Source: Haladaptatus sp. QDMS2 (GTDB lineage: Archaea; Halobacteriota; Halobacteria; Halobacteriales; Halococcaceae). Taken from it: DNA of 64,000 nt. Each line of letters starts with the position of its first letter. The stretch's first letter is position 1. A program made the position numbers and the translations under genes. Where the stretch lies: contig NZ_CP119791.1 of the NCBI RefSeq assembly GCF_029338295.1, forward strand, positions 496,001-560,000. Direction: 5' to 3'. Below, piece after piece: positions 5,908 to 42,148 of this stretch. The notes beneath the pieces are model-generated. The model was not told the DNA's origin. It made no database searches and saw nothing but the letters and a program-made list of their open reading frames with translations.

Positions 5908-6669
5908 ATGACCGGTCACGCCGGGATCGATGGACGCACCTCCAGAGAGGTGGTACGCTTCTACCTGCGCGACCACCGGACGCCCGTCGGGAAGACCATC
6001 GACATTGCGCTGCTCGCGCTCATCTTCGCCTTCATCGCATTGTTTATCGTCGAAACCTACGCCTGGGCGACTCCTTACCTGCCCATCCTCTTTCAGCTCG
6101 AAGTCGCTATCGCGCTCGTGTTCTTCGCCGAGTATCTGCTTCGTATCTACGGCGCTCGCGACCGGCTCGCGGAAGTCACCGACCCGTACACCGTGGTCGA
6201 CTTGCTCGCGATTCTGCCGACGCTCCTGTTGTTCGTCGTGCCCTCGGTCGAATCCACCGTCCTCAACATCGGCTACCTGCGGGCGCTGCGAGTGATTCGC
6301 GTGCTTCGCTTCTACCGTTTTACCAAAGACGAGGAGTTCTTCTTCGGAACCGTCTCCGACTCCGCCCTCCGAGCGATGAAACCCGGTCTCACCGTTCTGA
6401 CGCTCTTTTTCGTCGCCGCCGGACTGTTCTACAGTTTCGAACAGGCGACGAACCCGACGGTAAACAACTTCGGCGACGCGTTCTACTTCGTCGTCGTCAC
6501 GCTCACGACGGTTGGGTTCGGCGACATCACGCCCGTCACCCGCGCCGGGCGCTGGGTGACGGTTTCTGCCATCGTCGTCGGCATTATCCTCATCCCGTGG
6601 CAGGCGGGCCGCATCGTCAAAGAGTGGGCGCACAGAGACCAGGTGAACGTCGTCTGCCGGAACTGCTGA
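5908..6669 (+). CDS. Voltage-gated-type potassium channel protein, ended early by an in-frame TGA
   Basis: 253 aa as read. Six membrane segments are visible. An arginine-rich S4-like helix (RALRVIRVLRFYRF, about 125-138) is followed by the pore with selectivity filter TVGFGD (201-206). It should conduct K+ across the cytoplasmic membrane. The protein ends VVCRNC and then TGA, but the same frame continues for 26 codons to 6750 and supplies a second CxxC. The stop thus cuts a cytoplasmic zinc ribbon in half. A one-base change (GGA to TGA) would explain it. The next gene's stop lies only 1 nt after 6750, which supports 6750 as the ancestral end. Confidence 0.87.
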   Translation: MTGHAGIDGRTSREVVRFYLRDHRTPVGKTIDIALLALIFAFIALFIVETYAWATPYLPILFQLEVAIALVFFAEYLLRIYGARDRLAEVTDPYTVVDLLAILPTLLLFVVPSVESTVLNIGYLRALRVIRVLRFYRFTKDEEFFFGTVSDSALRAMKPGLTVLTLFFVAAGLFYSFEQATNPTVNNFGDAFYFVVVTLTTVGFGDITPVTRAGRWVTVSAIVVGIILIPWQAGRIVKEWAHRDQVNVVCRNC

Positions 6670-6750
6670 CTGGCCTACCACGACAGAGACGCCTCCCACT
6701 GCAAGGCGTGTGGGAACGTTATCTACCAGCAGTACGACTCTCGCGAGTGA
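6670..6750 (+). other. Orphaned C-terminal zinc-ribbon half of the K+ channel
   Basis: In frame with 5908-6669. After the TGA at 6667-6669 the frame reads LAYHDRDASHCKACGNVIYQ and six more residues to TGA at 6748-6750. CRNC before the stop plus CKAC after it form a CxxC...CxxC zinc ribbon. Readthrough would give a 280-aa channel. Otherwise this is untranslated remnant. Confidence 0.7.
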
Positions 6751-6751
6751 G

Positions 6752-7813
6752 TCACCGCGCCAGCACGAGCGACCGCTCTATCGATCCGAGCGAGAAGGGT
6801 AGGCTGTCCCACGAGTCGCCGTAATCGGCGGAGAACCACACCTTCCCGTCTGCCGCTCCAGCGACGACGAGTCCCGGTTCGCCGGGGAGCGTACAGAGGG
6901 CGTACGGCATCGCGGCGAACGGCCGGGGCAATCCGCCGCCAAGTCGCACCCACGGCCCGTCACCGCGCCAGCGATAGATGTAGGCTCTCGCCCGTCCTTC
7001 GCGGTGGGCGGCGAACGCTCCCGTAGAGGCCGACAGATACCACGTGTCCGGGTCTTCGGGGTCCGCTGCGACGGCCCAGCCGTACGACCGGTCGAGGCCG
7101 TGTGTGGGGGCAATCCACGTCGCCCCGCCGTCCTGACTCGTCGCGCCGCCACGTCCACGCAGGCCCGCCCCACCCTCGTAGAGCCTCGTTCCGTCGGTCG
7201 TGTGGAACGTAAGGGTGTGGCAGTCGCGTATCGCCCCCTCGCAGTGGCCCGACCACGTCTCACCGCCATCCGTACTCCGGACGACGGCACCGAATTCGAT
7301 ACCCGCCACGACGAGGTCCGGGTCGGTCGGCGAGAGCGCAATCGCCTGCACGTAGGGTGAAAGCGGCAATTCGGCGGGCGAGAACCAGAGGCGCTTCCCG
7401 GGAATCGAGTTGAACCCCGTCAACTCGGTCCACGTTAGGCCGCCATCGACCGACTTGAACATGCCCGCGGGTTTCACTCCTGCGTAGATTGTCGCGGAGT
7501 CGTGGGGACTCACGGCCAGCGATTTCACGACCCTGCCCGCGAGACCCAGGTCGTCCCAGGTCACCCCGCCATCGACCGATTGGAACACGCCCTCGCCCTG
7601 TGTTCCGGCGTAGCTGATGGCGGGCGTTGTCGGGTCCACGGCGAGACAGCGCACGTCCACGTGCGAGAGCGGGAGCGTGACTGTCCACTCGCCGTCGGCG
7701 AAACTGGCTCTCGCAATCCCCGCAGCCGTGGTAGCGAGAAACGTCGTTGCGAGGAGCGATTCAGGAACTGTGATGCCGCCAACGCGTGGCGGACTCCGGG
7801 TCTTGATTGCCAT
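6752..7813 (-). CDS. Asp-box (BNR/sialidase-like) beta-propeller protein
   Basis: 353 aa. Repeated Asp-box motifs SVDGGVTW, SVDGGLTW, STDGGETW, SQDGGATW and SADYGDSW are spread over the whole length, one per propeller blade, as in sialidase/sortilin/Ycf48-like propellers. No signal peptide or catalytic set is evident, so the protein may be a cytoplasmic or non-classically placed binding scaffold. No substrate can be assigned. It converges on the K+ channel (stop codons 1 nt apart when the channel frame is taken to 6750). Confidence 0.8.
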   Translation of the reverse strand: MAIKTRSPPRVGGITVPESLLATTFLATTAAGIARASFADGEWTVTLPLSHVDVRCLAVDPTTPAISYAGTQGEGVFQSVDGGVTWDDLGLAGRVVKSLAVSPHDSATIYAGVKPAGMFKSVDGGLTWTELTGFNSIPGKRLWFSPAELPLSPYVQAIALSPTDPDLVVAGIEFGAVVRSTDGGETWSGHCEGAIRDCHTLTFHTTDGTRLYEGGAGLRGRGGATSQDGGATWIAPTHGLDRSYGWAVAADPEDPDTWYLSASTGAFAAHREGRARAYIYRWRGDGPWVRLGGGLPRPFAAMPYALCTLPGEPGLVVAGAADGKVWFSADYGDSWDSLPFSLGSIERSLVLAR

Positions 7814-40421: not shown

Positions 40422-42148
40422 ATGAGCCAACAGCACACCGAAAAGCGGGAGAAGGCGGCGGGCCTTCCCTCTCGCGACGTGACAGAAGGGCCAGAACGCG
40501 CCCCGCACCGAGCGATGTTCCGGGCGATGGGGTTCGACGACGAGGACCTCGCCTCGCCGATGATCGGCGTCGCGAACCCCGCGGCCGACATCACCCCGTG
40601 TAACGTGCACTTAGATGATGTCGCCGCCTCAGCTATCGAAGGCGTCGACGAAGCGGGCGGGATGCCAATCGAATTCGGCACCATCACCATTTCAGACGCC
40701 ATCTCGATGGGCACCGAGGGGATGAAGGCGTCGCTCATCTCGCGGGAGGTCATCGCCGACAGCGTCGAACTCGTCGCCTTCGGCGAGCGTCTGGACGGCC
40801 TCGTGACCGTCGCTGGCTGTGATAAGAACCTGCCGGGAATGATGATGGCGGCAATCCGCACGGACCTGCCGAGCGTCTTCCTCTACGGCGGTTCGATTAT
40901 GCCCGGCCAGCACAACGGCCGCGACGTGACCATCGTGCAGGTGTTCGAGGGCGTCGGCGCGTACGCAAGCGGCGACATGAGCGCGGAAGAACTGGACGAC
41001 TTAGAACGCCACGCCTGCCCCGGCGCGGGGTCCTGCGGCGGGATGTTCACGGCGAACACGATGGCCTCCATCAGCGAAGCCATCGGCCTCGCTCCCCTCG
41101 GAAGCGCGAGCGCTCCAGCAGAACACGACGAACGCTACGACGTGGCCCGCCGCGCCGGCGAACTCGCCGTCGAAGTCATCCGCGAGGAACGTCGCCCCTC
41201 CGACATTCTCACCCGGGAATCCTTCGAGAACGCCATCGCCGTCCAGACGGCGATTGGCGGTTCGACGAATGGGGTGCTCCACCTGCTGGCGATGGCCGCA
41301 GAAGCGGGCATCGACCTCTCCATCGACGACTTCGACGAAATTTCCCGACGCACGCCGAAAATCGCCGACCTCCAACCCGGCGGCACGAGCGTCATGAACG
41401 ACCTCCACGAGATTGGGGGCGTCCCGGTGGTCATCCGTCGCCTGTTGGAAGCGGGTCTCATCCATGGTGACGCCATGACCGTCACCGGCCGCACCATCGC
41501 CGAGGAATTGGAACAGCTCGACCTGCCCGCAGACGAGGACATCGAGGCCGATTTCCTCTACACCGTCGAAGAACCAAAGCAGGCAGAGGGAGCCATCAAG
41601 ATTCTCAAGGGCAATCTCGCTCCCGACGGAGCCGTCCTCAAAGTGACTGGCGACGACAAGTTCCACCACGAGGGCCCTGCGCGTATCTTCGAAAACGAAG
41701 AAGACGCGATGGCCTACGTCCAGGAGGGCCACATCGAGTCGGGCGACGTCATCGTCATCAGAAACGAGGGCCGCGCGGCGGCCCTGGCATGCGTGAGATG
41801 CTCGGCGTCACCGCCGCCGTCGTCGGCGCGGGCCACGAAGACGACGTCGCCCTCCTCACTGACGGTCGGTTCTCGGGCGGGACGCGCGGCCCCATGATTG
41901 GCCACGTCGCCCCCGAGGCGTTCGTCGGCGGGCCAATCGCGGCACTCGAAGACGGCGACATCGTCACGGTGGACATCCCCGAACGAACCCTCGAAGTGGA
42001 CCTTACGGACGCGGAACTCGCCGCCCGCCTCGACGACTGGGAGGCCCCCGCGCCCGCCTACGATTCTGGCGTCCTCGCGAAGTACGGCCAACTGTTCGAC
42101 TCGGCGGCCAACGGTGCGGTCACCAATCCCGGCGCGAAGCGCGACTAA
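40422..42148 (+). pseudogene. ilvD: Dihydroxy-acid dehydratase, frameshifted as sequenced
   Basis: Catalyses the dehydration of 2,3-dihydroxy acids to 2-keto acids in isoleucine and valine synthesis. Fe-S cluster Cys are seen in VAGCDKNLPGMMMA and HACPGAGSCGGMFTANTMAS. The frame breaks near 41771: the sequence reads GAGGGCCGCGCGG where GAGGGCCCGCGCGG would give [15 protein letters not shown], the conserved end region. One C is missing, after which the frame continues correctly (from 41789) to 42148. The total would be about 575 aa, a normal IlvD length. Either an assembly error or a real broken gene. Confidence 0.9.

Follow-up and report, generated by a model that had tools for sequence, protein, structure and literature searches.

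A likely nonsense change splits the zinc ribbon of a potassium channel gene in Haladaptatus sp. QDMS2

The window that we analyzed is a 64,000-nucleotide stretch of the genome of Haladaptatus sp. QDMS2. Near its start lies a potassium channel gene whose frame ends with the residues VVCRNC and then TGA (6667–6669). The features at this locus, with their support, are:

5908–6669, + strand: truncated Kv-type K+ channel of 253 amino acids, ending in the first half of a zinc ribbon (domain and profile matches)
6655–6666, + strand: first zinc knuckle, CRNC (read in frame and aligned to orthologues)
6667–6669, + strand: in-frame TGA, at a codon that is Gly (GGN) in the orthologues
6670–6747, + strand: second half of the ribbon, stranded beyond the stop; its 26 codons include the CKAC knuckle (alignment to orthologues)
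6748–6750, + strand: ancestral stop codon (TGA) of the full-length frame (the frames of orthologues terminate at the corresponding position)
6752–7813, − strand: convergent neighbor gene, with its stop at 6752–6754, separated from the ancestral stop of the channel by 1 base

Judging by its sequence, the product of 5908–6669 is a six-helix Kv-type K+ channel: it passes curated domain cut-offs and has the selectivity filter and the S4 arginines. Pfam's Ion_trans (PF00520) matches with E = 1e-22 (81 bits, against a cut-off of 25) and Ion_trans_2 (PF07885) with E = 1.2e-18 (67 bits, against a cut-off of 22.5), and the frame matches the profile of Kv4.2 (6e-24). The filter TVGFGD and the arginine-rich S4, RALRVIRVLRFYR, can be read directly in the translation. 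When aligned with 17 orthologues, R128, R131, R134, G203, G205, and D206 are invariant. Foldseek comparisons to solved structures found generic Kv channels only, and the tail gave no information.

Compared to known voltage-gated K+ channels (KvAP, Kv4.2, and the hyperpolarization-activated family NF040645), the protein shares the six-helix layout, the TVGFGD filter, arginines at every third residue of S4, and a profile match to solved Kv channels. However, it scores far below the cut-off of NF040645 (104 versus 300 bits), and the matched regions of these channels do not include a C-terminal zinc ribbon, which the family of the window's channel has.

After the TGA, the same frame continues through 6670–6747, where it encodes LAYHDRDASHCKACGNVIYQQYDSRE. 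The initial annotation described the channel frame, its CRNC-TGA end, the 26 further codons with CKAC, and the end at 6750, and each of these details is correct. It also placed the next gene's stop one base past 6750, and a single base (6751) does lie between the ancestral channel stop and the convergent gene. The tail and this neighbor do not overlap, so we rejected the idea that the conservation of the tail is borrowed from the neighbor. The upstream gene is the same in another genome of the genus (G001), so the orthologue there is syntenic. Within the QDMS2 genome, the only paralogues of the channel that we found are distant, and the tail motif was not found a second time. A search of the plasmids of sister strains for a copy of the channel found none, and a viral origin was rejected, as no viral relatives were found.

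To see how relatives treat this tail, we rely on three sets of sequences. A first survey of 146 relatives found 17 orthologues. All 17 have an open tail frame, Gly at the codon that is TGA here, and the second CxxC, and all 17 tails line up in register with the 26 codons after the stop. The pattern CxxCG...HDxDASHCKxCG occurs in a single frame in each of the 17; in the window, the TGA at 6667–6669 splits it. This supports the view in the initial annotation that one zinc ribbon has been split by a stop, as both halves match the orthologues' tails. Second, among 80 named loci, Gly is encoded by GGN in all 79 that are readable (GGG 30, GGA 21, GGC 19, and GGT 9), but part of this sample was picked by means of the tail motif, which favors intact tails, and so it cannot measure tail loss. 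Third, when the whole protein was searched against the class and three families, the total came to about 105 orthologues, with the one in the window counted; this is a manual count of rows with E below 1e-50 and identity of 57% or more, with fragments set aside. We found no in-frame stop inside the matches of the ~104 other haloarchaeal orthologues. Relatives do not end at CRNC: 101 of the ~105 orthologues align through the end of the ribbon and keep the whole tail.

The initial annotation had also asked whether the family has Gly (GGN) at this codon, and had proposed a single-base change from GGA to the stop. Every orthologue that we examined with an intact frame has this Gly, and GGA, which is among the codons found, is the likeliest ancestor. 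So the ancestral sense codon is one change away from a stop, and the TGA is confined to one genome, as for an ordinary nonsense allele.

Conservation of the tail extends well beyond the haloarchaea. An alignment of 39 sequences, which reaches bacteria and Woesearchaeota, has 35 invariant columns, including all four cysteines and Gly254; the window's TGA was entered as Gly in this alignment, so invariance at that column refers to the other 38 sequences. Given these invariant columns and the shared register with all 17 of the first orthologues, the 26-codon tail is more than a chance open frame. Deltaproteobacteria and Woesearchaeota retain the signature CxxCGLxxHDxDASHCKxCG, and so the ribbon is very probably important for function. 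Potassium channels with this zinc ribbon (L078–L112) are widespread, being found in Deltaproteobacteria, Woesearchaeota, and other lineages, with near-identical HDxDASHC tails and weak matches to Pfam. The nearest described domains are Zn_ribbon_15 (PF17032) and Zn_ribbon_3 (PF13248), which resemble the CxxCG...HDxDASHCKxCG tails; each matches 24 of the 39 members, with E values of up to 0.01. The window's own match, where the ribbon is cut in half, is under the gathering score. The HDxDASHC signature is particular to the channel family.

The tail still looks constrained. Relative to the nearest orthologue (L004), it has 8 synonymous differences and 1 non-synonymous difference, while a core stretch of 123 codons has 31.5 synonymous and 30.5 non-synonymous differences. 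H270N is the sole amino-acid change in the tail on the window's side, and it is also present in distant intact relatives. If the tail had been neutral over more than ~20% of the branch, then one amino-acid change or fewer would have P < 0.05. Because the tail still looks constrained, the stop seems to be young: we estimate that it arose in roughly the most recent fifth of the lineage's branch since the nearest relatives that we compared. This estimate is rough, as dS comes from few codons and the tail is assumed to be free of selection since the stop. The pattern agrees with the initial annotation's proposal that the tail was lost recently. On the other hand, little decay of the tail would also be expected if it were still translated, which counts against loss, as does the fact that just one genome carries the TGA.

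The core of the channel is not evolving faster than in the sister genomes (a relative-rate test was not significant), so the gene does not plainly look like a pseudogene. Even so, both L159P and H270N change positions that do not vary among the 17 orthologues in the alignment. At 159 these all carry Leu, whereas the window's channel has Pro-Gly at residues 159–160, close to where S5 begins, and this pair may alter gating.

The initial annotation suggested, as an alternative to loss, that the stop is read through, which would give two forms of the channel, with and without the ribbon. The intact and apparently constrained frame after the stop fits with leaky or programmed readthrough of UGA. 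Also, in eukaryotes a C directly after UGA makes the stop leaky, and the release factors of archaea are of the eukaryotic kind, which would favor this idea. But the stop is absent from all of the relatives, so a readthrough signal would have no evolutionary conservation. Nor did we find dedicated machinery. None of the tRNAs that ARAGORN typed, among 44 tRNA matches, has a UCA anticodon, and matches to the tRNA-Sec model stay below the family's cut-off. By manual reading of its sequence, one locus (L146) is an intron-bearing tRNA with a TCT anticodon. tRNA-Trp is absent from the 44 matches; haloarchaeal tRNA-Trp carries a long intron, which probably hid it from tRNA matching. The RNA downstream of the TGA folds no better than shuffled sequences (z = -0.29), and because this folding is weak and ordinary, we rejected a stimulatory hairpin.

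Even if ribosomes did pass the stop, near-cognate decoding of UGA usually inserts Trp, Cys, or Arg, and not the invariant Gly of the knuckle. It is doubtful that a readthrough product with one of these residues would form a working ribbon. Nor do we see a genome-wide habit of readthrough: across the 344 kb of chromosome that we surveyed (see below), the sole other clear nonsense change within the body of a gene is in a gene that is also frameshifted.

Other forms of recoding do not fit either. In this region, more conserved ORFs end in TGA than in either of the other stops (150 of 305), and no UCA tRNA was found, so we rejected genome-wide reassignment of UGA. We also rejected selenocysteine at this codon. 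The case resembles archaeal selenocysteine recoding in having an in-frame UGA inside a conserved gene, but it differs in that there is no tRNA-Sec match above the cut-off and no downstream structure, and the relatives have Gly instead of Cys or Sec. A review of archaeal recoding documents readthrough for selenocysteine and pyrrolysine only (PMC8211752). With a stop that is not conserved across ~104 orthologues, no stimulatory structure, and no dedicated tRNA, this gene does not look like a case of programmed readthrough. As neither the relatives, the tRNAs, nor the RNA structure give a positive sign of it, we consider leaky or programmed readthrough to be very unlikely. That readthrough occurs at a useful rate, so that both the ribbonless and the ribboned channel are made, seems slightly less probable still; if true, it would be the first readthrough of a stop in an archaeal cellular gene besides those that insert selenocysteine or pyrrolysine.

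Another concern is that the TGA is an error of sequencing or assembly and that the strain really has a Gly codon and an intact channel. A single-base difference, in one genome, within an otherwise intact tail is what such an error would look like. Furthermore, a gene 35 kb away has a break that is typical of assembly errors:

40422–42148, + strand: dihydroxyacid dehydratase (ilvD-like) gene, broken near 41770 by a one-base deletion in a run of C

As a result of this deletion, the frame is shifted for the last ~125 codons. On contig C2, another member of the ILV_EDD_C family is intact. The ilvD-like gene could be either a pseudogene or the site of an assembly error.

Against an error, the change in the channel is a substitution and not an indel, and the second replicon appears to be accurate. 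Over 20 kb, this replicon shares 99% identity with the plasmids NZ_CP119783.1 (Haladaptatus sp. YSMS36) and NZ_CP120472.1 (DYSN1). Compared to YSMS36 over ~44 kb and 45 genes, it has no frame-breaking indels and no nonsense changes, and the differences include 150 synonymous and 56 non-synonymous changes, where random errors would give a ratio of 25:72. The assembly of the second replicon is thus clean over the ~44 kb compared, which covers a plasmid and not the chromosome.

For the chromosome, we surveyed 344 kb (~278 genes) against G001, and our background rates come from these 344 kb. The survey was filtered, as GC-rich sequence yields many false open frames and start-site artifacts. The clear breaks within the body of a gene were in the channel, the ilvD-like gene (near 41770), and a gene outside the window (L167, G000:C1:468889-470223). 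In the latter, a TGG codon has become TGA and a frameshift follows further on; the gene is intact in G001. Breaks of this kind are thus uncommon but do occur, whether through decay or residual error, and the combination of nonsense change and frameshift in the gene outside the window implies that gene loss by point mutation does occur in this region. Overall, we consider it unlikely that the TGA is an error; the nonsense mutation in the channel is probably real.

If so, is the loss of the ribbon tolerated, or even selected, and has it arisen several times? This would refine the explanation by nonsense mutation rather than exclude it. Two others of the ~105 orthologues have a broken tail and an intact core. 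The orthologue in G298 (L212, G298:C13:1095000-1097500) lacks one base at the same Gly codon, so that it reads CPDCG and is then out of frame. The orthologue in G452 (L215, G452:C1:1933500-1935200) has unrelated sequence in place of the tail, beginning just after the last membrane helix. (The orthologue in G482 has a frameshift inside the core and an intact tail.) Two of four events fall in the same codon; with an even spread of events, the probability of this is about 2%. However, there are only four events, and the count was made post hoc. Toward the 3' end of the gene, truncations leave the core untouched and would be expected to persist longer, the deletion in G298 may be an assembly error, and loss is rare, given how many orthologues keep the whole tail. 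We note the break in G298 at the same Gly codon as a coincidence, and as a lead only. Recurrent or adaptive loss of the ribbon strikes us as improbable, to about the same degree as a sequencing error.

Ordinary decay or loss of the tail is the best reading of the TGA. It is likely that a young nonsense change between the two zinc knuckles, from GGN (GGA is likeliest) to TGA, truncated the channel in this genome. After this one base change, translation by the ribosome would end at the TGA and yield a channel with a complete membrane part. The ribbon could not form, because a single CxxC remains. The truncated channel would then either work without the ribbon's control or begin to decay. As in ordinary nonsense alleles and early pseudogenes, the stop arises from a single-base change, the downstream frame is intact, and the stop is not conserved; the difference is that the membrane channel is complete in the product here, which may therefore still function.

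Taken alone, this is a natural nonsense allele in a K+ channel gene. The truncation also points to a strongly conserved zinc-ribbon tail on a family of K+ channels from haloarchaea and several bacterial and archaeal lineages; in the literature that we searched, we did not find a description of this tail. Natural truncations with an intact membrane core offer a way to ask what the ribbon does.
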